DNA from: Desulfofustis sp. PB-SRB1
Lineage (GTDB): Bacteria; Desulfobacterota; Desulfobulbia; Desulfobulbales; Desulfocapsaceae
Direction of reading: 5' to 3'
Assembly: GCA_016722945.1 (NCBI GenBank)
Contig: JAEQMT010000022.1
Location: forward strand, 1 to 64,000
DNA length: 64,000 nt
Shown here: in pieces, positions 43,640 to 54,830 of the stretch
How positions within the stretch are numbered: the first letter of the stretch is position 1
Layout of the letters: each line of letters opens with the position of its first letter
Translations under genes and position numbers: made by a program
The notes under the pieces: model-generated
Told to the model about the DNA's origin: nothing
Database searches by the model: none
The model's input: only the letters and a program-made list of their open reading frames with translations

Positions 43640-44626
43640 ATGGATATTACCACCTACATATCAGCCCAAACCCGCCATATCGAGAAATTGATTCGTGCGG
43701 ATATCGATAACTGGTCGAAGACCTGCGAGCCCATTCTGGCCGAGATCTGCGCCTATGGACTGCTCTCCGCGGGTAAACGGATCAGACCTGTTCTTGCCGT
43801 GTTGAGTGCGCGTCTGTGCGGCGGTGAACAGCCGTGGCTCTACGCCATGGCGGTGGGGTTTGAGTACCTCCATACCGCCACCTTGTTTCACGACGATATA
43901 ATCGACGGCGCCAAGAGCAGGCGAGGGCAGATCCCGGTGGCGGGCAAATATGGGGTCAATGCGACGATCCTTGCCGGCGACTACCTGCATACCGTTGCCA
44001 TTGCCCATATCAGTAAGTATTGCGGGGACGCCGGTGTTACCGCCTTGAGCCGGGCCACCAGGGCGATGGTGAGTGGTGAATTTACTCAGCAGCGTCTGAT
44101 TGGTGATATCGACCAGAGTGAAGCGGACTATTTTTCCGTTATCACCGCAAAGACCGCCGTTCTGCTCGGCGCCTCCTGCGAAATCGGAGCATTGGCGGCC
44201 GGGGCGACGGCCAAAAAGAGTGAGGCCCTGTACCGCTATGGGCTGACCCTTGGCCGCGCCTATCAGATTATCGACGATATTCTCGATTATATCGGTACCT
44301 CGGGTAAAACCGGCAAGGTTGTCGGCAACGACCTGGCCGAGGGCAAAATAACCCTGCCCCTGCTCCGCGCCTACCAGCGGGCAAACCGGCATGATAAAGA
44401 CAAGCTGCGTGGTATTGTCGCCAGTCCGGATCGTCGTCGCCGCGACTTTGCGGAGGTGGTTCGGATACTCAACGATTATGACGGTTTTGGTGCGGCGCGG
44501 CAGGCTGCTGCGCGTGAGGTGGACAGGGCCAGAGCGGCCCTGCGTGAATGTGAAGTGGGCGCCGATAGTGAGAGCCTCGCCATGCTTACCGAACTGTGTG
44601 AGTTTATCCTCACCAGACAGAAATAG
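43640..44626 (+). CDS. ispB: Trans-polyprenyl diphosphate synthase (IspB-like)
   Basis: 328 residues. The first Asp-rich motif is LFHDDIIDGAKSRRG, the second IIDDILDYIGTSGKTGK. The GKRIRP loop (SAGKRIRPVLAVLSA) binds isopentenyl diphosphate. The length and the small residues before the first motif fit long-chain (C35-C45) quinone side-chain synthases. A supply of geranylgeranyl diphosphate for the carotenoid genes 4 kb away is possible but not demonstrated. It lies upstream of a small membrane gene with a 7-bp gap. Confidence 0.88.
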   Translation: MDITTYISAQTRHIEKLIRADIDNWSKTCEPILAEICAYGLLSAGKRIRPVLAVLSARLCGGEQPWLYAMAVGFEYLHTATLFHDDIIDGAKSRRGQIPVAGKYGVNATILAGDYLHTVAIAHISKYCGDAGVTALSRATRAMVSGEFTQQRLIGDIDQSEADYFSVITAKTAVLLGASCEIGALAAGATAKKSEALYRYGLTLGRAYQIIDDILDYIGTSGKTGKVVGNDLAEGKITLPLLRAYQRANRHDKDKLRGIVASPDRRRRDFAEVVRILNDYDGFGAARQAAAREVDRARAALRECEVGADSESLAMLTELCEFILTRQK

Positions 44627-44837: not shown

Positions 44838-44907
44838 GCTGTCCCCGAAGTAGTTACCGGGATATTGGCCCTTGCGCTAACTGCGTCAATGGCGTATATT
44901 TGTGTTG

Positions 44908-45222
44908 ATGAAGTTTATCGAGACCCCACTATTTACCAAGATACTCCTCGGTTTAATGGAGGATGATGAATACAAGTCGCTGCAAGTTGCCTTGCTGCTG
45001 AGGCCTGAACAGGGTGTTATTATAACAAAATCCGGTGGTCTTAGAAAAATCCGCTGGGCGGCAAGAGGAACAGGAAAGCGAGGTGGTCTTAGGGTTATTT
45101 ATTATTGGGACAAGAAAACGGAGTCTTTTTATATGCTTTATGTGTATCCAAAAAGTAAAAAGGATGACCTGACTCCGGATCAGCTCCGTATCTTGAGTCA
45201 ATTGGTGAAAGAGGAGCTGTAA
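44908..45222 (+). CDS. RelE/HigB-type toxin
   Basis: 104 residues from the ATG at 44908 (TTG at 44902 is possible). KFIETPLFTKILLGLMEDDEY then GGLRKIRWAARGTGKRGGLR and VIYYWDKKTESFYMLYVYPKSKKDDLT are the RelE/HigB fold with basic catalytic residues. It probably cuts mRNA on the ribosome. The antitoxin gene starts within its last codon (TAATG). Toxin-first order is typical of higBA-like pairs. Confidence 0.87.
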   Translation: MKFIETPLFTKILLGLMEDDEYKSLQVALLLRPEQGVIITKSGGLRKIRWAARGTGKRGGLRVIYYWDKKTESFYMLYVYPKSKKDDLTPDQLRILSQLVKEEL

Positions 45223-45512
45223 TGAAAGAGCAAGACTTCAACAATCTACTTAAAAGCGTTAAGCAGGCCGGCAGGATTCGGCGCGGTGAGATAAAGGCGA
45301 GTCGGGTGCATGAGTTTGCCGCAACTGATGTAAAAGCAATTCGGAGTCAACTTGGTAAGTCTCAGTCTGAGTTTGCCATGATGATTGGGGTGAGTGTATC
45401 GACCCTGCAAAATTGGGAACAGGGGCGCCGCTCTCCAGAAGGCCCGGCAAGAGCACTTTTGAAAATAGCCGCTATAAATCCTAAAGCGGTGGAGGATGCC
45501 CTTTCCGCCTGA
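45222..45512 (+). CDS. HigA/NadS-type antitoxin with Xre helix-turn-helix
   Basis: 96 residues. The N-terminal helix region (LLKSVKQAGRIRRGEIKASR) masks the toxin. The C-terminal HTH (IRSQLGKSQSEFAMMIGVSVSTLQNWEQGRRSPEGPA, shown in two parts: residues from IRSQ and from STLQ) binds the operon promoter. ATG overlaps the toxin stop. Convergent with the ilvBN operon, 8 bp away. Confidence 0.88.
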   Translation: MKEQDFNNLLKSVKQAGRIRRGEIKASRVHEFAATDVKAIRSQLGKSQSEFAMMIGVSVSTLQNWEQGRRSPEGPARALLKIAAINPKAVEDALSA

Positions 45513-45991: not shown

Positions 45992-47757
45992 GATGCACCT
46001 CCCTGATCTGCTTCGTCAGTGTCCGGACTGTTCATGGAAAATGAGGTGATCATATCGTTAAAACCACCGCCGGCCGGGATCATCGGTAAAATAAATTCAT
46101 TAGGTTCGCAGACAAATTCGACGACGATGGCGCCGGTATGCGCTATCGCCGCTTCCAGCGCCGGCTTGACATCTTCAAGCTTTTCTACCTTCAGATAGGT
46201 GATGCCGTAGGCCTCGGCAATGAGACCGAAGTTGGGGCTCCGCATCGGGGTGCCGGCGTAGCGCTCGTCAAAGAAAAAGGTCTGCCACTGTCGCACCATG
46301 CCCAGGTGACCGTTGTTGAGTATCAGTATCTTGATGTCGATACCGTACTCCATGACGGTGCCCAGTTCCTGTATATTCATCTGGAACCCACCATCGCCGC
46401 TGATCGACCAGACCCGCTCATTCGGGCGTGCCAGCTTCACGCCGATGGCCATGGGCAGGGACGCTCCCATGGTGCCGGCACCGCCGGAGGCAAACCAGCT
46501 GTTCTCGGTCTGATAATTGTAGAACCGTGCCGCCATCATTTGATGCTGACCCACGTCGGGAACAATCAGATCGCGCCCGCCGGTGAGCTCTGAGAGCTGG
46601 TGAACGATAGACTTCATCAGAAGCTTGCCACCGCTGCCGGTGCCCCGGCTGATTTCCTCTTCCAGATCCGCCGCCATCACGGTGCGGAACTCCTCGATCA
46701 TGGAGAACCATCGCCGCCGTGGCTTATAGGTGAGCATCGGCTCATCCAGCAGGGCCTCCAGGGTGCGGGCCACATCGGCGTTGATGGCGACGCTGGTGGC
46801 CACGTTTTTGTTAATCTCGGAGGAGTCGATCTCCACATGGATAACGTCGGCGTTTTTCGCGTATTCGTTGAGTTTACCGGTTACCCGGTCATCAAAGCGC
46901 ATCCCCAGGGCAATCAGCAGATCCGCCTCCATGATGGCACGATTGGACTCGACGGTGCCGTGCATGCCCATCATCCCCAGACTTAAGGGATGATCCAGGG
47001 GCAGGGCGGAAAGCCCATGCAGGGTGAAGGCAATTGGGATGTTCATTTTCTCGGCAAATTTGCGCAGCAGGGCGCCGGCGTTGGCGTTGATGACCCCATG
47101 CCCGCAGAACAAAAGCGGGCGTTCGCTGCGATTGATCAGGTCGGCGGCACGCTTGATGGCATCTGTTTCCGGGTTCGGACTGTACAAAAAACCGGGAAGC
47201 TGCGGGGTGAAGTTCTCGGCCGCAAATTCATAGTCGGCGGGGGTCTCGTTGTTCTGGATATCTTTCGGGATATCGATCAGCACCGGTCCGCCCCGACCGG
47301 TTTTGGCCACGTAGAAGGCCTCGTGGACGGTAGATTCGACCTCTTCGGGGGATAGCGGCATGTAGGTCTGTTTACAGATGGGCATCATGACCCCCACCAC
47401 ATCGCTCTCCTGAAAGGCATCGGTGGCAATCACCCCGGTGGCAACCTGACCGGTGATCGCCAGCATGGCCACCGAATCCATGTGGGCGTCGGCAATCCCG
47501 GTTACCAGATTCATCGCCCCCGGCCCGGAGGTGGAAAGACACACTCCCAGCTCAGGTCTATCGGTTGAGAGCGCTCCCCGGGTCAGTCCCTGGGCCATAA
47601 AGGCGGCCCCCTGCTCGTGGCGGGCCATGAGAAAGGTCATATCATCAAATCTTTCGATTTCATCAAAAATTGGCATGATCGCCCCGCCGGTGTAACCGAA
47701 GAGATAGCGAACGCCTAAGTCTTTCAGGGCACGAAGCACAAGAGTCTTGCCGGTCAT
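45988..47757 (-). CDS. ilvB: Acetolactate synthase catalytic subunit
   Basis: 589 residues, a thiamine-diphosphate enzyme. The N-terminal domain has RYLFGYTGGAIMPIFDEI with the catalytic Glu in RHEQGAAFMAQG. A central FAD-binding fold follows, and the C-terminal ThDP domain has SGDGGFQMNIQELGT then ILNNGHLGMVRQWQ. It condenses two pyruvates, or pyruvate and 2-oxobutyrate. RBS AGGAA before the ATG. The leader contains a perfect 11-bp inverted repeat. Operon with ilvN; ilvC is not in the window. Confidence 0.95.
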   Translation of the reverse strand: MTGKTLVLRALKDLGVRYLFGYTGGAIMPIFDEIERFDDMTFLMARHEQGAAFMAQGLTRGALSTDRPELGVCLSTSGPGAMNLVTGIADAHMDSVAMLAITGQVATGVIATDAFQESDVVGVMMPICKQTYMPLSPEEVESTVHEAFYVAKTGRGGPVLIDIPKDIQNNETPADYEFAAENFTPQLPGFLYSPNPETDAIKRAADLINRSERPLLFCGHGVINANAGALLRKFAEKMNIPIAFTLHGLSALPLDHPLSLGMMGMHGTVESNRAIMEADLLIALGMRFDDRVTGKLNEYAKNADVIHVEIDSSEINKNVATSVAINADVARTLEALLDEPMLTYKPRRRWFSMIEEFRTVMAADLEEEISRGTGSGGKLLMKSIVHQLSELTGGRDLIVPDVGQHQMMAARFYNYQTENSWFASGGAGTMGASLPMAIGVKLARPNERVWSISGDGGFQMNIQELGTVMEYGIDIKILILNNGHLGMVRQWQTFFFDERYAGTPMRSPNFGLIAEAYGITYLKVEKLEDVKPALEAAIAHTGAIVVEFVCEPNEFILPMIPAGGGFNDMITSFSMNSPDTDEADQGGAS

Positions 47758-48145
47758 AAATGGTTCCTGGTCTGTAGTATTAAAAAAAACGTCCTAGATC
47801 TACACGAAAAGATTGGAAAACACTAATCTTTTCGTCTTACTATCGATCCCTCACCATTAGTTATTCGTGCTGAAAGTGCAAGCTGCGGTGAAAGATCAGA
47901 CCTATTTCTTGGCAAAAGGGTTCACCCAACAATTTCCCCGCCATTCTATTGTCTCCCGCAACCACCGTGGCTCCATGGGGAATTATGGTGATTACTATAG
48001 TAAATAGGTAGATATTCGCAGTGCGGTAAGACAGAGACCGTATCTGTATTGCCATTTGGTGCACGGAAAACGAACTTGCCGCGGTTGGCTGAATGATCAG
48101 GGGTGCATGTCCAGGCGAGCATGAACCCTTATATTGTTAGTATTT
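47758..48145. other. Divergent intergenic region between ilvB and crtI
   Basis: It must hold the promoters of both the ilvBN operon and the retinal operon. The inverted repeat at 47804-47835 is near ilvB. No gene is credible here. Confidence 0.6.
47804..47835 (-). promoter_or_regulatory. 11-bp inverted repeat in the ilvB leader
   Basis: ACGAAAAGATT and AATCTTTTCGT around a 10-nt loop, 47 bases upstream of the ilvB start. In the transcript a T-run follows only after about 15 nt, so it is not a clean terminator. It may be an operator or an attenuator part. Confidence 0.45.
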
Positions 48146-49609
48146 ATGGCAAAAATTGGTGTCATAGGCGGCGGTTTCGGTGGGATTGCGGCGGCCCTGC
48201 GAATGCGAGGCAAAGGCCACGAGGTGGTGCTGTTTGATCGCTGCAGCCGTCTGGGGGGAAGGGCCCAGGTGTTCAGTCGTGATGGGTACCGTTTTGATGC
48301 CGGGCCAACGGTAATCACGGCGCCGTTTCTACTTGAAGAACTGTTTGCGCTCTTTAGCAAACGTATGACCGATTACCTGGATATGGTTCCACTTGATCCA
48401 TGGTATCGCTTCGTCTTTTCCGATGGAGAGGTCTTCGACTACGGTGGCACGGTTGATGATACTCTGGCCCGGATCGCCCGCATATCTCCCCAGGATGTAG
48501 CGGGGTATAAAGGGTTGCTGGAGGAATCCCGGCGCATTTTTACGGTGGGGTTCGAACAACTCGCCGACCAGCCGTTTCATCGGCTGAGCACGATGATTGG
48601 GCAGATTCCGGCAATGATCAGGCTCGGCAGCTACCGTTCCATGTATAGCTTGGTCTGTCGTCATCTGGTGGATGATCGGCTCAGGCAGGCCTTTTCGATT
48701 CAGCCGCTGCTGGTTGGCGGCAACCCGCTAGATACGACCTGTATTTACGGACTTATCCACTATCTCGAACGCAAGTGGGGGATCCACTTCGTGATGGGGG
48801 GAACCGGCGCCCTGATCGACGCTCTGGCTGCATTGATGAGAGAAGAAGGGATTGAGCTTTGTCTTGATACCACCATCACCTCCATACAAACCTCGGCCGG
48901 AAGGGTTCATGGGGTCATCACCGACAACGACACCAGGGTAAAGCTCGATGCGGTGATCGCCGATGTCGATCCCGTCCAACTCTACCGCGACCTTATACCC
49001 ACTCGTGAACAGACTCTCATGGTGAGGATGAAGCGGCGCTTTGCCACCTCGTCCATGGGGCTCTTTGTGCTCTATTTTGGTTCGAGCCGAACCTATCCGG
49101 ATGTCTGCCATCATACGATTGTACTTGGCCCACGCTTTGCGGGGCTGCTCGAAGACATATTCTCCCGGAAGGTACTGCCGGATGATTTTTCTCTCTATCT
49201 TCATCGCCCGACGGCTACCGACCCCTGTTTTGCACCGGCTGGTCACGACTCATTTTATGCGCTGGTTCCCGTCCCCAATCTCAGTGCCGATATCAACTGG
49301 CAGCAGCAGGCTGAACCATTTGCTGATCGGATTGTCTCGGTTCTCGATGCCACGGTGCTGCCCGGGTTGAGAGAAAGCATACGGTGCCGGTTCCAGATGA
49401 CCCCGGCGGATTTTCAGACGCGCTACCTCAGCACCCTGGGAAGCGGGTTTTCTATTGCACCGTTGCTGCACCAATCGGCCTGGTTACGGTTTCATAACCG
49501 TGGTGAGGGGGTGAACAATCTCTACCTGGTGGGGGCCGGCACGCATCCCGGCGCGGGATTGCCCGGGGTGCTCTGTTCCGCGAAAGTCGTGGAAAAACTC
49601 ATAGATTAG
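48146..49609 (+). CDS. crtI: Phytoene desaturase
   Basis: 487 residues from the ATG at 48146. FAD loop KIGVIGGGFGGIAAALRM with VVLFDRCSRLGGRAQVF, then YRFDAGPTVITAPFLLEELF, the CrtI signature. The C-terminal FAD-contact motif is NLYLVGAGTHPGAGLPGVLC. It converts phytoene to lycopene in several steps. First gene of the retinal operon (crtI, crtB, crtY, blh), 9 bp from crtB. No obvious RBS. Confidence 0.93.
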   Translation: MAKIGVIGGGFGGIAAALRMRGKGHEVVLFDRCSRLGGRAQVFSRDGYRFDAGPTVITAPFLLEELFALFSKRMTDYLDMVPLDPWYRFVFSDGEVFDYGGTVDDTLARIARISPQDVAGYKGLLEESRRIFTVGFEQLADQPFHRLSTMIGQIPAMIRLGSYRSMYSLVCRHLVDDRLRQAFSIQPLLVGGNPLDTTCIYGLIHYLERKWGIHFVMGGTGALIDALAALMREEGIELCLDTTITSIQTSAGRVHGVITDNDTRVKLDAVIADVDPVQLYRDLIPTREQTLMVRMKRRFATSSMGLFVLYFGSSRTYPDVCHHTIVLGPRFAGLLEDIFSRKVLPDDFSLYLHRPTATDPCFAPAGHDSFYALVPVPNLSADINWQQQAEPFADRIVSVLDATVLPGLRESIRCRFQMTPADFQTRYLSTLGSGFSIAPLLHQSAWLRFHNRGEGVNNLYLVGAGTHPGAGLPGVLCSAKVVEKLID

Positions 49610-49618
49610 AAAATATCA

Positions 49619-50515
49619 ATGGATGAAGGATCAGCCGTTGAGGTTCTGCAAAGACATGGCAAAACCTTCCGCTATGCCCAGCGTTTACTCGGCAGGCGGC
49701 GCGGTGGTGCGATCGCCCGGCTGTATCGTTTCTGTCGCTATATCGACGATCTGGCCGATGAGCATGGCGATGTGGAAGTATCCCGGCGTAAGTTGGGTTC
49801 TCTTCTGGATGAACTCGACAACCGTTCCGCCCACGACTCTATTGTGCGGGATTTTCTTGTCCTGGCCGATCAGTGGGGGCTCGATCTGCGCCGTGGCAAA
49901 GAACTGGTAAGGGGGGTGATGGGTGATCTGGATACGGTAACGATTGCAGACGAACCCGAACTGATGCGCTATTGTTTTCATGTGGCCGGAACCGTTGGAC
50001 TGATGATGTGCCCGCTACTCGGAGCGGCACCTTCGGGCATGCCGTTTGCGGTGGATCTCGGCATCGGCATGCAGCTCACCAATATTGCCCGTGACATACA
50101 TGCCGATGCCGTGCAGCAAAGGCGCTATCTGCCTGGCCAGTGGGTAAAAGAAATCAGTGCCGAAAAGATAGTGAGCGCCGGCGCAAAGGAACGGATTCTG
50201 GTTATAGATGGTATCAGGCGTCTGCTCGATCTAGCTGAGGTGTATTATGCAAGCGGTATGAACGGCCTTGTATATTTGCCGCTGCGCAGCCGGATCAGCA
50301 TCGCGGTGGCGGCCACTACCTATCGTGAGATTGGGGTGAAATTGCGCAGGCACGGGTGTAAGTGGTGGCAGGGCCGCGTCTCGACCACCGGGCTGGAGAA
50401 GACACGGCTGGCTGCCATCACCGCATGTTCTCAGGTGCTTCTTCTGCACCGCCCACCACCAGTTCATGACCGGAGTTTGCATCGGTATATCGATGATCTT
50501 GTCAACCCTTCCTGA
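49619..50515 (+). CDS. crtB: Phytoene synthase
   Basis: 298 residues. The first Asp motif, YRFCRYIDDLADE, and the second, QLTNIARDIHADA (D-x-x-x-D), bind diphosphates through Mg2+. RRYLPGQW follows as in squalene/phytoene synthases. It joins two geranylgeranyl diphosphates head to head. The crtE gene making that substrate is absent nearby. The crtY start lies inside the last codons. Confidence 0.93.
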   Translation: MDEGSAVEVLQRHGKTFRYAQRLLGRRRGGAIARLYRFCRYIDDLADEHGDVEVSRRKLGSLLDELDNRSAHDSIVRDFLVLADQWGLDLRRGKELVRGVMGDLDTVTIADEPELMRYCFHVAGTVGLMMCPLLGAAPSGMPFAVDLGIGMQLTNIARDIHADAVQQRRYLPGQWVKEISAEKIVSAGAKERILVIDGIRRLLDLAEVYYASGMNGLVYLPLRSRISIAVAATTYREIGVKLRRHGCKWWQGRVSTTGLEKTRLAAITACSQVLLLHRPPPVHDRSLHRYIDDLVNPS

Positions 50516-51725
50516 ACAGCTGGCCGAGTTGGCCGGAATGCACACCGATGTTGCCGTTGTTGGCGGTGGCTCTGCCGGGCTTGCCCTGGCTTATCACTGT
50601 ATTACCGACGAAGCGGGCGTGCCAGTCACCATTCTTGAGGAGCGGCCAAAATATGAAAATGACCGTACCTGGTGTTTTTGGGATTTTGCCGAAATTACCG
50701 GCGAACTCCAGGGGCTGATCCGCCATCGCTGGCACCGCTGGCTATTTTCAGGAGGGGGTGAACACGTGATCCATCACAGTCACGCCCATCCCTATTGTGC
50801 CATTGCCGCCGGTGATTTCTACCAGATGGTGAGGCAGCGCATCCTGGCAAGCGATTCCGTGCATCTTGTTACCGGCTGCCGGGTGGATGCCATCACCCGG
50901 TACGAGAACGGCGGCTTCGTCATCCAGACAGAACGGGGAACGCTGCGTTGTCGGCGGGTTATCGATACGAGGCCGCCATATCCCGAATACCTTGTGGGGA
51001 TGACCGATGCAACCGCCCGGCAGATACCCGAGAAACTGGCCGGTACCCCCATATTTCAGGTGTTTTTGGGATATGAGGTGGAAACTGAGAGGCCCTGTTT
51101 CGATCCCACCACGGCGTGGTTGATGACCGATATGAAAAGCGACGGGGATGGGCTAAGATTCGTCTATATGCTGCCCTACACAAAAACCTCGGCACTGATT
51201 GAATACACGCTGTTCTCAACGAAATTCATGGTACCGGTGCAGCTCCATGACGCCTGTGCTCAGGCAGTGTCTGAGCTCTGCGGCACTGGTGGGTATACGG
51301 TGGTGCGAAGGGAGGGGGCGGTATTGCCCATGGGATTGTTGCTAAAGCCCGGGCACGGGAACCATTGGCTGCAAGCGGGTATCGGCGGCGGCGCCCTGCG
51401 AGCCTCCACGGGTTATGCCTTTATTCGTACCCAGCGATGGGCGGCGGCCTGTGCCGCGGCCCTGGGCGCCGGCCGGCCGGCTTTGCCGCACCATGAAGAT
51501 GGGAGGATTATGCACTATCTCGACCAGCTATTCCTGGATGTTTTGTCGGTCAAGCCGGGTCGTGCAAGGCAGATGTTTATGGGTATGGCTCAAAACCTGC
51601 CGGCCGACTGTTTTGCCCGTTTCATGATGGAACAGAGCACCTGGCGCGACTATCCGCGAGTGATCCGGGCGATGCCGGCACAACCCTTTATCACCCGCTT
51701 TCTGGCACGGCTTGTGGGGAGGTGA
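50493..51725 (+). CDS. crtY: Lycopene beta-cyclase (CrtY type)
   Basis: About 410 residues. The dinucleotide loop DVAVVGGGSAGLALAY and the family mark NDRTWCFWDF, then RRVIDTRPP, and the C-terminal IGGGALRASTGYAFIRTQRW of CrtY. It closes both ends of lycopene to give beta-carotene. The start is uncertain: ATGs at 50466, 50493 (chosen; overlaps crtB by 23 bp) and 50538 (MHTDVAVVGG). It overlaps or abuts blh. Confidence 0.92.
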   Translation: MILSTLPEQLAELAGMHTDVAVVGGGSAGLALAYHCITDEAGVPVTILEERPKYENDRTWCFWDFAEITGELQGLIRHRWHRWLFSGGGEHVIHHSHAHPYCAIAAGDFYQMVRQRILASDSVHLVTGCRVDAITRYENGGFVIQTERGTLRCRRVIDTRPPYPEYLVGMTDATARQIPEKLAGTPIFQVFLGYEVETERPCFDPTTAWLMTDMKSDGDGLRFVYMLPYTKTSALIEYTLFSTKFMVPVQLHDACAQAVSELCGTGGYTVVRREGAVLPMGLLLKPGHGNHWLQAGIGGGALRASTGYAFIRTQRWAAACAAALGAGRPALPHHEDGRIMHYLDQLFLDVLSVKPGRARQMFMGMAQNLPADCFARFMMEQSTWRDYPRVIRAMPAQPFITRFLARLVGR

Positions 51726-51726
51726 G

Positions 51727-52629
51727 GTGAGGCGAAGCTTTTGCAAAACACGGTTTAATCGTAACACCATTACCCTGGTGTACAGTGCGGTTTCGCTGCT
51801 GGTCATCGGCGCGCTGGTGAGCGCTGAACCACTGCCAAGCCAGGTGCAGCTAATTGGTATTGTCCTGCTCATTGCGGTTTGTGGGTTACCACATGGCGCC
51901 CTTGATGCGGAAATTGGTACCTTCCTTGACTTGACCCACACCATAAGAGGCGCGTTCTTGTTTTTTATGGGGTACGTCCTGCTTGCCCTCAGTGGTATCG
52001 CATTATGGTTGTGGCTACCGCCCCTGGCACTTTCCCTGTTTCTGGTAATTTCCATCTTTCATTTCTCAGATGACTGGCAGAGCAGACTTGGCCGACCCAT
52101 GAGTGTGGCTCTGGCCGTTGCGGTAGTGGGGCTTCCGGCCATCGGCCAGCCTGATGCGGTTGCCCAGATATTGACCTGGCTGTTCATTCCCGCCCCTCTG
52201 GCTCCGATGTTTGTTACCATCCTGGCCTTTGGCGCCGGTATCGGACTGCTGCTTGTTGTCGGTACCGTGATGGTGTCGCACCGGGGGCGCTGGCCGGTGA
52301 TCGTGGAAGTTAGCCTGCTCAGCATCAGCGCCCTGGTCATGTCGCCGGTGCTCTATTTCGCCCTTTATTTCTGCCTGATTCATGCACAGCGGCACATGCT
52401 TGATTGCTCCCGGCTCCTTGATCTCTCACTGGCGCAGTGCTATCTCAAATCGCTGCCCATACTGTTTCTAACCGTGTTATGTGGTGGTGCGAGTTATTGG
52501 CTATTTGCCTCCGCGGGGCTTTCCACCAATCTCATTCGCTGGCTGTTCATCGGACTCTTTGCCCTGACTCTGCCGCATATGGCATTGATCACCTACTGGA
52601 ACAGGCGCCGCGGTTCTGATCACCGGTAA
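51727..52629 (+). CDS. blh: Beta-carotene 15,15'-dioxygenase, Brp/Blh family
   Basis: 300 residues from the GTG at 51727, 1 bp after the crtY stop, with GGGGAGG before it. About 8 membrane helices. The iron-binding histidines lie in GLPHGALDAEIG, IFHFSDDWQ, HAQRHMLD and LPHMALITY. It splits beta-carotene into two retinals using O2. It completes the retinal pathway for the rhodopsin 214 bp downstream. Confidence 0.92.
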   Translation: MRRSFCKTRFNRNTITLVYSAVSLLVIGALVSAEPLPSQVQLIGIVLLIAVCGLPHGALDAEIGTFLDLTHTIRGAFLFFMGYVLLALSGIALWLWLPPLALSLFLVISIFHFSDDWQSRLGRPMSVALAVAVVGLPAIGQPDAVAQILTWLFIPAPLAPMFVTILAFGAGIGLLLVVGTVMVSHRGRWPVIVEVSLLSISALVMSPVLYFALYFCLIHAQRHMLDCSRLLDLSLAQCYLKSLPILFLTVLCGGASYWLFASAGLSTNLIRWLFIGLFALTLPHMALITYWNRRRGSDHR

Positions 52630-52843
52630 ACTGCGGGGAATTAAGGATCCGCGCATGCAGCGGCGCCATGTCCAAAGCGCCTGAATTTTAGGCCATACCT
52701 TGAATTTTGTGATGCTGGTATTAATTGTAAGATAGGATATTAGAGCATTAGTCTCGTGCAATTTAGCTTGCAGCGAGCTACTGGTTTAACATGCATGATA
52801 TCTCAAATCTTACTTATCTCAGCTCATCATACAGGGAGATGAT

Positions 52844-53647
52844 ATGAATACCGAACTTTTTACTATCTCGATTGAAGGCTTTGAGATAGTCAATCACATC
52901 CTCACCTTGGGCTATGCCACCATGGCGGCTGCCCTGTTTTTTTTCATTCTCACCAAAAAGAATTGCCTGCCCAAGTACCGTATGTCATCGGTCATCTCGG
53001 TGGTGGTAATGGTTTCTGCATTCCTGCTCCTGTTTATTCAGAAAGAGAGCTGGACCGCGGCATACGCCTTCAACGGCGCGGCCTATGTACTGAACCCCGG
53101 CGCCGATCTGTTCACCAATGGCTACCGCTATCTCAACTGGCTTATCGACGTGCCCATGCTGCTGATTCAGATACTCTTTGTTGCCGAGATTGTGGGTTCG
53201 GACCGCGTCCGCTACATGACCAGGTTCTCAGTTTCCGGCTGTATGATGATTCTGCTGGGCTACATCGGTCAATTTTACGAGCCCGGTCGGCTAAATGAGA
53301 GCATATTCTGGTGGGCGTTCTGGGGATTGGCCTCAACCGGCTTTTTCATCTATGTACTGATTCTCATCACCCGCGTTATCAAGGAGGGTGCGGCGAAGAT
53401 GGATGGCCCGGCGCAATCGCTGTTCTCCGCCATTTTACCGCTTTTTTATATCTCATGGTGGCTCTATCCCATCGCCTATGCGGCACCGGTGCTTATGGAA
53501 GCAGGCGTATCCTACCAGTTCACCATTGTCAGCCAGCAGGTGATTTATACCATCGCTGATATCAGCTCGAAGGTGGTTTACGGGGTCATGCTTACGGTAA
53601 CTGCATCAATGATCAGCGAAAAACAGGGATATGCGGTGGACGGCTAG
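52844..53647 (+). CDS. Light-driven sodium-pump rhodopsin (NDQ motif, KR2 type)
   Basis: 267 residues, seven membrane helices. Helix C reads NGYRYLNWLIDVPMLLIQ, with N98, D102 and Q109 at the positions of Asp85, Thr89 and Asp96 of bacteriorhodopsin. NDQ is the signature of Na+ pumps such as Krokinobacter KR2 (N112, D116, Q123). R95, D239 and the retinal lysine K243 (IADISSKVVYGV) are present, and D88 and H18 match KR2 D102 and H30. It should export Na+ in light, or H+ when Na+ is scarce. AGGGAG site 7 bp before ATG. The 214-bp gap from blh may hold its own promoter. Confidence 0.95.
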   Translation: MNTELFTISIEGFEIVNHILTLGYATMAAALFFFILTKKNCLPKYRMSSVISVVVMVSAFLLLFIQKESWTAAYAFNGAAYVLNPGADLFTNGYRYLNWLIDVPMLLIQILFVAEIVGSDRVRYMTRFSVSGCMMILLGYIGQFYEPGRLNESIFWWAFWGLASTGFFIYVLILITRVIKEGAAKMDGPAQSLFSAILPLFYISWWLYPIAYAAPVLMEAGVSYQFTIVSQQVIYTIADISSKVVYGVMLTVTASMISEKQGYAVDG

Positions 53648-53747
53648 ACTTGGTATCAGAACAGCAGGCGTAGTGGTATGGCAAGAGATGCATGAAAGAC
53701 ACTGCATATGATGCGATTTCAGTTGTATCCATGGATCTTTTTTTGAA

Positions 53748-54830
53748 CTACAATTTGAATCCAGCCGCCTGCAGCTTGTTTTTGATATCGTCTATATCAG
53801 CTGCCTTGATATACGCCTCCTCAGGTTCGACCACCTGCTTGCGGACCAGATCTAACAGATGAGCGTTGAGCATTTGCATGCCAAATCTGCCGCCGGTCTG
53901 GATGGCGCTGGGAATCTGGTGGCTCTTGCCCTCTCTAATGCAGTTGGCCACTGCCGCATTTACCACCATAATCTCCAAAGCTGCGATCCGCCCCTTACCG
54001 GTCTTGCGGCGCAGCAAGTTTTGGCAAATAACGCCTTTGAGCGATGAGGAGAGCATCATGCGAATCTGGCTCTGCCTGGCAGCGGGGAATTGATCGACGA
54101 TACGATCAACGGTGCTGGACGCCGTGGAGGTATGAAGGGTGCCCAGCACCAGATGGCCGGTTTCGGCGGTCTCAATGGCAATTTCGGTGGTCTCCAGATC
54201 TCGCATCTCGCCCACCAGAATAATATCAGGGTCTTGTCGCAGGGCGGCCCGCAGAGCGTTTTTAAAACTCTCGGTATGGCGGCTTACTTCACGCTGGTTG
54301 ATCAGGCAGCGTTTGTTGGCATGGACAAACTCGATGGGATCTTCGATGGTGACCACATGATCATGGCGCTTTGTGTTGATGTAGTCGACCATGGCGGCAA
54401 GTGTCGTTGACTTGCCACTGCCGGTCGGCCCGGTCACCAGAACCAGCCCTTTGCTCAACTGGCAGAGCTCTTTGAGCACCGGCGGCAGGCCCAACTCGTC
54501 AATCGACATGATTTTTTGTGGAATATGGCGAAACACCGCACCTATTCCTTTGAGATCCTGAAATACATTTACCCGGTAGCGTCCAACCCCCTCGATGGCA
54601 TAGGCAAAATCCGTATCTCGCCTGGTATCAAACTCCTCACTGTTACGCGGTGGCATAATCTCCCTGAGCAGCGTTTCGATCTGGTCCGGTTTCAGGGCAT
54701 GTCCCGAATCTCCACCGGTGGCGCGCATGGTACCGTCAATACGAAACGACGGACGGCTCGAGGAGCTGAGATGCAGATCAGACGCGCCCGCCTTGGCCAT
54801 GAAAGTGAGGTATTTATCAACCGTAGCCAT
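53748..54830 (-). CDS. pilT: Twitching-motility ATPase PilT
   Basis: 360 residues. Walker A VTGPTGSGKSTTLAAM, Asp box TIEDPIEFVH, Walker B DPDIILVGEMRDLETT, His box ETGHLVLGTLHTSTA. AIRNLIRE-type C-terminal AANCIREGKSHQ-like NCIREGKSHQI is present. It retracts type IV pili from the cytoplasmic side of the inner membrane. It is 8 bp downstream of the cyclic-nucleotide-binding gene, so the two form an operon. Confidence 0.93.
   Translation of the reverse strand: MATVDKYLTFMAKAGASDLHLSSSSRPSFRIDGTMRATGGDSGHALKPDQIETLLREIMPPRNSEEFDTRRDTDFAYAIEGVGRYRVNVFQDLKGIGAVFRHIPQKIMSIDELGLPPVLKELCQLSKGLVLVTGPTGSGKSTTLAAMVDYINTKRHDHVVTIEDPIEFVHANKRCLINQREVSRHTESFKNALRAALRQDPDIILVGEMRDLETTEIAIETAETGHLVLGTLHTSTASSTVDRIVDQFPAARQSQIRMMLSSSLKGVICQNLLRRKTGKGRIAALEIMVVNAAVANCIREGKSHQIPSAIQTGGRFGMQMLNAHLLDLVRKQVVEPEEAYIKAADIDDIKNKLQAAGFKL

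Follow-up and report, generated by a model that had tools for sequence, protein, structure and literature searches.

A retinal biosynthesis cassette with a predicted sodium-pumping rhodopsin in the sulfate-reducing bacterium Desulfofustis sp. PB-SRB1

Sulfate-reducing bacteria are usually regarded as dark-living, light-independent anaerobes. Cassettes that connect retinal synthesis to a rhodopsin are known in the form of crtEBIY-blh beside a proteorhodopsin gene. Light-driven sodium pumps such as KR2 of Krokinobacter eikastus (PDB 3x3b, 4xtn) carry an NDQ motif (Asn, Asp, Gln). The subject of this report is the first 64 kb (64,000 nucleotides, "the window") of contig JAEQMT010000022.1 of Desulfofustis sp. 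PB-SRB1 (assembly GCA_016722945.1), which contains on the + strand, between positions 48146 and 53647, five intact genes in the order crtI, crtB, crtY, blh and a gene for an NDQ rhodopsin. They are likely to represent a complete retinal pathway that feeds a light-driven, outwardly directed Na+ pump, in a sulfate reducer that tolerates oxygen.

In KR2, an extracellular cluster of E11, E160 and R243 was formerly proposed as the Na+ exit, but KR2 variants with exchanges at these positions still pump, with lower activity and stability (PMC7195465, PMC10608830), and the role of the cluster may be in stability and not in the ion route (PMC7195465). ErNaR contains a counterpart, the triad E5-E149-R234 (PMC11006869). 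An original prediction made from the window sequence had described NDQ pumps as known mainly from marine flavobacteria, which has to be corrected: they are also described from Balneolota (PMC6243061), from Bellilinea of the Chloroflexota (PMC5459899) and from Erythrobacter (PMC11006869). In metagenome-assembled genomes (MAGs) from Lake Barkol, rhodopsins are called "widely distributed" (PMC12174138). No report of an NDQ rhodopsin in sulfate reducers was found in searches of open-access literature; subscription journals were mostly outside the scope of this search, which leaves the absence unproven.

The rhodopsin and its subgroup among the NDQ pumps

The rhodopsin gene (52844 to 53647, + strand) encodes a protein of 267 amino acids (aa) that matched Pfam Bac_rhodopsin (1.9e-36) and no NCBIfam model. 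R95, N98, D102, Q109, D239 and K243 occupy the places of KR2 R109, N112, D116, Q123, D251 and K255, and D88 is present as well; N98, D102, Q109, K243, D88 and D239 were all located where the original prediction had placed them. With D102 at the counterion position instead of a threonine, the protein does not carry the NTQ motif of the chloride pumps. The equivalents of KR2 H30, S64, S70, Q78, D102 and S254 were all kept in the alignment, each of which is linked to function in KR2 (table in PMC10608830). The phmmer scores were 239 bits to 8jh0 (IaNaR), 228 to KR2, 166 to the best chloride-pump entry, 150 to ErNaR (8qle) and 127 to xanthorhodopsin. An AlphaFold model (pLDDT 91.9) had KR2 as the best Foldseek match, and the 50 listed of 1271 matches were all KR2 or IaNaR. 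The window rhodopsin is predicted to be a light-driven Na+ pump.

In an IQ-TREE tree of 57 rows (53 of the 93 alignment rows plus L105, L113, L124 and L125), 46 NDQ rows formed one group (98/95), and the window protein fell inside it, so that the clustering outside this clade that would have refuted the original prediction was not seen. Outside were a single NTQ row and 10 further rhodopsins, proton-pump-type proteins among them, the branching order of which is not trustworthy because the outgroup branches are long (up to 10). Within the clade, the window protein belonged to a subgroup of 18 rows (99/99), sister to the group containing KR2, IaNaR and the proteins of Bacteroidota, Balneolota and Chloroflexota (85/92), and clustered there with L004, L005, L007, L008 and L009 (99/97; 88/93 in a 10-row tree). 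The original interpretation is thus supported as far as the NDQ clade is concerned; rather than a typical relative of KR2, however, the protein is a member of a sister subgroup with altered extracellular residues.

The features of this subgroup were counted across the 83 NDQ rows that the 93-row alignment contains. KR2 position 243 was Q in 18/18 subgroup rows and R in 65/65 others, position 122 was I in all 18 and F in all 65, and the D-E loop, taken from E160 to position 169, comprised 12 to 15 residues in all 18 versus 8 to 9 in all 65. All three map to, or close to, helix C and the E11-E160-R243 cluster on the extracellular side. As a set, the triad is missing from the subgroup: E160 was kept in 83/83 NDQ rows, including 18/18 subgroup rows, all of them with Q243. 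The residues ahead of H30 numbered 12 to 19 in 16 of the 17 subgroup rows reaching this position (25 in one) and at least 27 in 60/65 others, although three of the lengths are meaningless, that of L019, whose sequence sets in within helix A, and those of two typed PDB stretches, whose first residues are 23 to 24, and the remaining lengths depend on a script that took the farthest ATG within 40 codons. The alignment for the N-terminal comparison contained 48 proteins, the window protein and those of 47 of the 80 loci introduced below. The window N-terminus is shorter than that of KR2, and its E4 is not a conserved residue, L005 having N and L009 having T there. Phenylalanine at KR2 position 25 was found in 14/18 subgroup rows and also in 8/65 others. 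The position of KR2 L74 was L in 18/18 rows, which agrees with NDQ Subgroup 1 (L or I; PMC11006869) and not with the Glu of the ErNaR-type Subgroup 2. KR2 D102 was kept in 10/18 rows and lost in eight, those of the small Bacilli/Acholeplasma-like genomes (L013 to L019 and L032, 8/8 rows). The subgroup looks like a natural variant doing without R243, as judged from its residues, and we infer that its Na+ exit route differs from that of KR2.

A scan of genome contigs confirmed 141 relatives of the rhodopsin, 80 of which were kept for comparison (L numbers indicate loci, G numbers genomes). Among these 80, the nearest relatives came from six deltaproteobacterial MAGs, L004 to L009, with 77 to 84% identity (L004 84%, L005 81%, L006 77%). 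Four of these MAGs are labelled Desulfobacterales, L006 Desulfocapsaceae, and L005 "Deltaproteobacteria"; the last was filed under Myxococcota by the tree tool, yet possesses dsrA over the cut-off. Proteins of Ningiella ruwaisensis (74%), a Planctomycetota MAG (69%), a Spirochaetaceae MAG (64%) and Bacilli- or Acholeplasma-like MAGs (53 to 59%) followed, and relatives from Chloroflexota, Bacteroidota and Balneolota had about 50% identity. Between its retinal cassette and its NDQ rhodopsin, Ningiella ruwaisensis encodes a second, DTE-type (proton-pump-like) rhodopsin (L010:5467-8792). PF01036 was over the cut-off in 2/93 family genomes (own and G040) and in 1/395 genomes of the phylum sample (own). 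The G040 protein (L002) is identical to that of L006, from the MAG "Desulfocapsaceae bacterium MO_192.B14" (NCBI: Desulfobulbales), which gives the family of the window genome its name. Matches below the cut-off in G063, G266 and G469 (E 6.5e-4 to 9.3e-4) were not counted as rhodopsins, and tblastn in their loci L003, L084 and L085 gave no match. One scan of viral_contigs found no relative of the rhodopsin. Plasmids yielded three records with 27 to 29% identity, two of which were placed in the tree, both outside the NDQ clade, and no match to Blh.

Retinal genes, their supply and their history

The crtI gene (48146, ATG, to 49609, + strand; 487 aa) encodes a CrtI-family phytoene desaturase (Pfam Amino_oxidase, 1.4e-25; TIGR02734, crtI_fam, 529 bits, cut-off 238) and crtB (49619 to 50515, +; 298 aa) a phytoene synthase (Pfam SQS_PSY, 5.6e-53; NCBIfam CrtB 151 bits, below the cut-off of 480) with the DxxxD motifs DDLAD at 43 and DIHAD at 159. 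The product of crtY (50538 to 51725, +; 395 aa from the likely ATG) is a lycopene cyclase (Pfam Lycopene_cycl, 2.1e-48; NCBIfam match below the curated cut-off), and that of blh (51727 to 52629, +; 300 aa from the likely GTG) a beta-carotene 15,15'-dioxygenase (Pfam BCD, 5.4e-39; TIGR03753 150 bits, cut-off 95). CrtB and CrtY are above the Pfam cut-offs and under those of NCBIfam. Pfam assigns all five proteins, and the set of retinal pathway genes seen in the original prediction was confirmed. The choice of starts was a matter of judgement: the longest crtY open reading frame (ORF) begins at 50466 and would overlap crtB by 50 bp, with ATG 50538 the likelier start, and the longest blh ORF begins at TTG 51712, with GTG 51727 preferred and GGGGAGGTGAG ahead of it. 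With these starts, the gaps are 9 bp (crtI-crtB), 22 bp (crtB-crtY) and 1 bp (crtY-blh), so that little or no gap between genes was rightly described for these four but not for blh and the rhodopsin gene, which are separated by 214 bp (52630 to 52843). The rhodopsin start is preceded by its own Shine-Dalgarno-like stretch, AGGGAGATGAT. A consensus scan of 47700 to 53900 revealed no excess of promoters or terminators over shuffled sequences (5 promoter-like sites versus 5.0 expected, 8 terminator-like sites versus 5.4), and Rfam and tRNA searches of the window gave no match.

Pfam scans were done for 22 proteins, a part of all window genes. Upstream of the cassette are genes for acetolactate synthase subunits, and downstream those for a T2SSE-type (PilT-like) ATPase and a cNMP-binding protein, as well as for a PurH-like protein with an AICARFT/IMPCHase domain and for a nucleotidyl transferase containing hexapeptide repeats. 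The segment from 44902 to 45512, between the polyprenyl synthase described next and the acetolactate synthase genes, codes for a RelE-like toxin and for an antitoxin-like HTH protein.

That no crtE is beside the rhodopsin is correct for the cassette, but a polyprenyl diphosphate synthase (43640 to 44626, +; 328 aa; no NCBIfam model at cut-off) is encoded 3.5 kb upstream in the window and is a possible source of geranylgeranyl diphosphate (GGPP). It is the nearer of two polyprenyl synthases found in this genome. Its first Asp-rich motif reads HTATLFHDDIID, which we take as a sign of an IspB-like chain length. The second synthase, encoded next to xseB, was over the cut-off of farnesyl diphosphate (FPP) synthase, with CrtE as the next best model (338 bits, below the cut-off of 460). 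GGPP, which the original prediction had ascribed to another locus, must come from one of these two, one of which is in the window. In the Desulfobacterales MAGs of L008 (1567-6461) and L009 (2236-4265), the retinal cassette is adjoined by genes for a polyprenyl synthase, for GHMP kinases and for diphosphomevalonate decarboxylase, the polyprenyl synthase directly before the rhodopsin and the mevalonate-pathway genes upstream, as if the isoprenoid supply were travelling with the cassette; in L008, a single fusion protein combines HMG-CoA reductase with a GHMP kinase and a NUDIX domain.

The cleavage of beta-carotene by Blh consumes O2. The blh gene was searched in 20 genomes with NDQ rhodopsins of the subgroup or of Chloroflexota, a set to which that of L017 does not belong. 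It was over the cut-off in nine (own, L004 to L008, Ningiella, the Planctomycetota MAG and an Ardenticatenaceae MAG), weak in one (L055) and not found in ten (L009, the Spirochaetaceae MAG, L020 and seven small genomes of 0.6 to 1.4 Mb). Thus, 6/7 deltaproteobacterial genomes possess blh, and the contig of L009, the seventh, ends inside crtY. The seven small genomes are the Bacilli/Acholeplasma-like ones, 7/7 of those searched, and these rhodopsin carriers may take retinal from neighbours. Oxygen reductases are present in the Desulfofustis genome in the form of two intact cydA genes and one COX1 gene, and cydA was found in 7/7 deltaproteobacterial genomes (own, L004 to L009).

The host is a dissimilatory sulfate reducer by its genes: dsrA (570 bits, cut-off 393) and dsrB (505, cut-off 341.5) were over their cut-offs, with an adjoining DsrD domain. 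Over the cut-off, dsrA was found in four of eight genome handles (own, L004, L005 and L007; G040 and the genome of L006 are one). The genome of L009 contained a partial dsrA below the cut-off, and those of L006 and L008 only weak matches. The dsr genes of G040 and G503 are at the same place.

Exchange of the rhodopsin gene has taken place independently of the genes for retinal synthesis. The window rhodopsin shares 74 to 84% identity with seven others in two phyla, versus 28 to 45% for CrtY and Blh. CrtB, CrtY and Blh had 55, 45 and 42% identity to those of L006, and 28 to 41% to the cassettes of Desulfobacterales type, of which five were compared for CrtB and four for CrtY and Blh; for CrtI, the values were 65% to L006 versus 54 to 59% to four such cassettes. 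A concatenated carotenoid tree joined the window with L006 (100/100). In approximately unbiased (AU) tests, the carotenoid data rejected a union of the window with the other cassettes (p 2e-7) and the rhodopsin data a union of the window with L006 (p 0.0028), p values that are somewhat flattering because the groups to be tested were chosen with the identities already known. These comparisons lacked crtI of L004 and crtY and blh of L009, both through contig ends. The conflict of the two trees indicates the separate exchange. In gene order, the rhodopsin is last in the window and L004, first in L005, L006, L008 and L009, and divergent in Ningiella. In the L007 genome, the carotenoid genes are on another contig, and the rhodopsin contig ends 0.8 kb upstream of the rhodopsin.

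Weighing of the readings and proposed working

The energetics of the host need to be considered next to the pump. An operon for the Na+-NQR contains nqrA, B, C, D and F over the cut-offs and a 201-aa ORF at the place of nqrE, assigned by its position. Of two Rnf sets, one (rnfC-rnfD-rnfG) had C and D over the cut-off; the other (L145, G000:C43), which is more diverged, had E over it and matched the models for C, D and G only below their cut-offs; the nearest model of its RnfG was a Desulfovibrio-named exception model. With the NQR operon and two Rnf-type sets, Na+ export by NQR is therefore part of the energetics of this bacterium.

Some results weigh against a Na+ pump of this kind in such a host. 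The exchange R243Q reduced Na+ pumping and stability of KR2, and Y25F, natural in the window protein, abolished the inter-protomer Na+ site (table in PMC10608830). KR2 pumps H+ when Na+ is absent (PMC7195465), so that the window protein may do the same under some conditions. Comparison of folds had to be rejected as a test of the ion type: VIA-align gave Z 33.6 for both KR2 and the chloride pump 5b2n, and because of this tie the fold is no guide to Na+ versus Cl-. The COX1 protein reached 617 bits, under the NCBIfam CtaD cut-off of 671 and over that of Pfam. Na+-coupled c subunits use Gln, Glu and Ser/Thr as ligands. The c subunit of the ATP synthase possesses the Glu-Ser pair and I29 where 2wie has Gln (phmmer alignment); a Na+-coupled ATP synthase is not claimed, and because I29 replaces Gln, the cell probably makes no direct use of the Na+ gradient for ATP.

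A pump of altered selectivity, for H+, for Na+ and H+ mixed or for K+, is a rival reading that builds on the loss of the KR2 release triad in the subgroup and on its variation at the uptake filter. The features R243Q, F122I and the longer D-E loop in all 18 subgroup rows, the filter changes N61 to S and G263 to T in the window protein, and the H+ pumping of KR2 point in this direction. However, N112, D116, Q123, D251, R109, S70 and S64 (KR2 numbering) are all kept, S/T at 61 and 263 is common to 8jh0, which is titled a light-driven sodium pump, and KR2 still pumps Na+ when E11, E160 or R243 is exchanged for alanine or a polar residue (PMC7195465). An altered selectivity is thus a rather improbable explanation, albeit the strongest of the rivals.

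A cassette foreign to the sulfate reducer, brought in by assembly or binning, is unlikely and carries very little weight. The assembly (4.69 Mb, 97.6% complete) consists of 71 contigs with 3.83% estimated contamination, broken extra cydA and nqrB/rnfD-type pieces are located on small contigs (C22, C53, C55 and C59 of G000, the genome itself) and may come from a second strain or low-quality contigs, the rhodopsin is over the cut-off in so few family genomes, and the GC content of its gene is 51.1% versus 54.6% for the rest of the window. In contrast, the contig spans 107,680 bp, the cassette has 55.3% GC, and the rhodopsin occurs in six other deltaproteobacterial MAGs, three of them with dsrA over the cut-off. 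Moreover, the PurH-like protein, encoded at a distance of 2 kb, had matches in 374/395 genomes of the phylum sample, and its 15 best foreign matches (67 to 72%) were all 15 same-order members of this sample; same-family matches (n = 3) were at 69 to 71%, and the very best came from other families of the order. Together with dsrA, dsrB and the DsrD domain, this bears out the deltaproteobacterial assignment made from the sequence.

A light sensor or a silent rhodopsin, with the carotenoids serving oxygen protection, is scarcely credible: the 214-bp gap would allow separate expression of the rhodopsin gene, but the flanking genes for acetolactate synthase, T2SSE-type ATPase and cNMP-binding protein are not transducers, the full pump motif is kept, the rhodopsin is far better conserved than CrtY and Blh (74 to 84% versus 28 to 45%, a closeness perhaps partly due to recent exchange), and blh serves retinal rather than carotenoid shielding.

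An outward Na+ pump fed by the retinal pathway would work as follows. GGPP from the polyprenyl synthase in the window or the FPP-synthase-like one elsewhere in the genome may be converted to phytoene by CrtB, to lycopene by CrtI, to beta-carotene by CrtY and, by O2-dependent cleavage by Blh, to retinal, which would be made only under O2. Retinal would be bound at K243 and isomerised by light, and the Schiff-base proton would move to D102 (KR2 D116). Na+ may then pass the Q109/S52 gate, bind near N98, D102 and S58 and leave outward past R95 and D239. Its release would probably not use a site of the KR2 E11-E160-R243 type, given the Q at position 243 and the shortened N-terminus. The resulting Na+ gradient would add to that of Na+-NQR and Rnf and may drive symport, antiport and motility in the light.

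A wider proposal stands at about even chances: sulfate reducers of at least two orders may be facultative rhodopsin phototrophs with a third, uncharacterised NDQ subgroup (R243Q, F122I, long D-E loop) whose Na+ release does not depend on the E11-E160-R243 cluster of KR2. The pump gene would spread apart from the retinal genes, O2 leaked by phototrophs nearby would serve retinal synthesis, and light would power Na+ export when sulfate respiration is poor. If this is true, retinal-based use of light energy enters a group treated as light-independent anaerobes, and the chromophore requires O2 in hosts whose metabolism shuns it. The subgroup would also be a natural test of a debated point of Na+ pumps, with R243 replaced in all 18 members seen.

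Comparison with known systems

KR2 and the window protein share the fold (47% identity, TMq 0.89 to 6rf0_D), the R-N-D-Q-D-K residues and H30, S64, S70, Q78, D102 and E160. They differ in Y25F, N61S, T87A, F122I, R243Q and G263T, in the longer D-E loop and in the shorter N-terminus without a conserved equivalent of E11. IaNaR (PDB 8jh0), the best phmmer match (239 bits), also has S/T at KR2 positions 61 and 263 but retains R243, F122 and the short D-E loop. ErNaR and the Subgroup 2 pumps share the NDQ motif (PMC11006869), while the window protein has L, not E, at the position of KR2 L74; ErNaR (8qle, 150 bits) is outside the rows of the tree. BeNaR from Bellilinea (Chloroflexota) is likewise an NDQ pump outside Bacteroidota, with Na+ pumping in Escherichia coli reported (PMC5459899). 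Its D101 and D230 (PMC10608830) are 129 positions apart versus 137 for D102 and D239 of the window protein, as calculated from published numbering and not from an alignment. The Chloroflexota rows L020, L025 and L055 keep R243, unlike the window protein. Finally, carotenoid genes and blh adjoin the rhodopsin gene here as in the proteorhodopsin cassettes, from which this locus differs in its NDQ rhodopsin, in a cassette without crtE and in its sulfate-reducing host.

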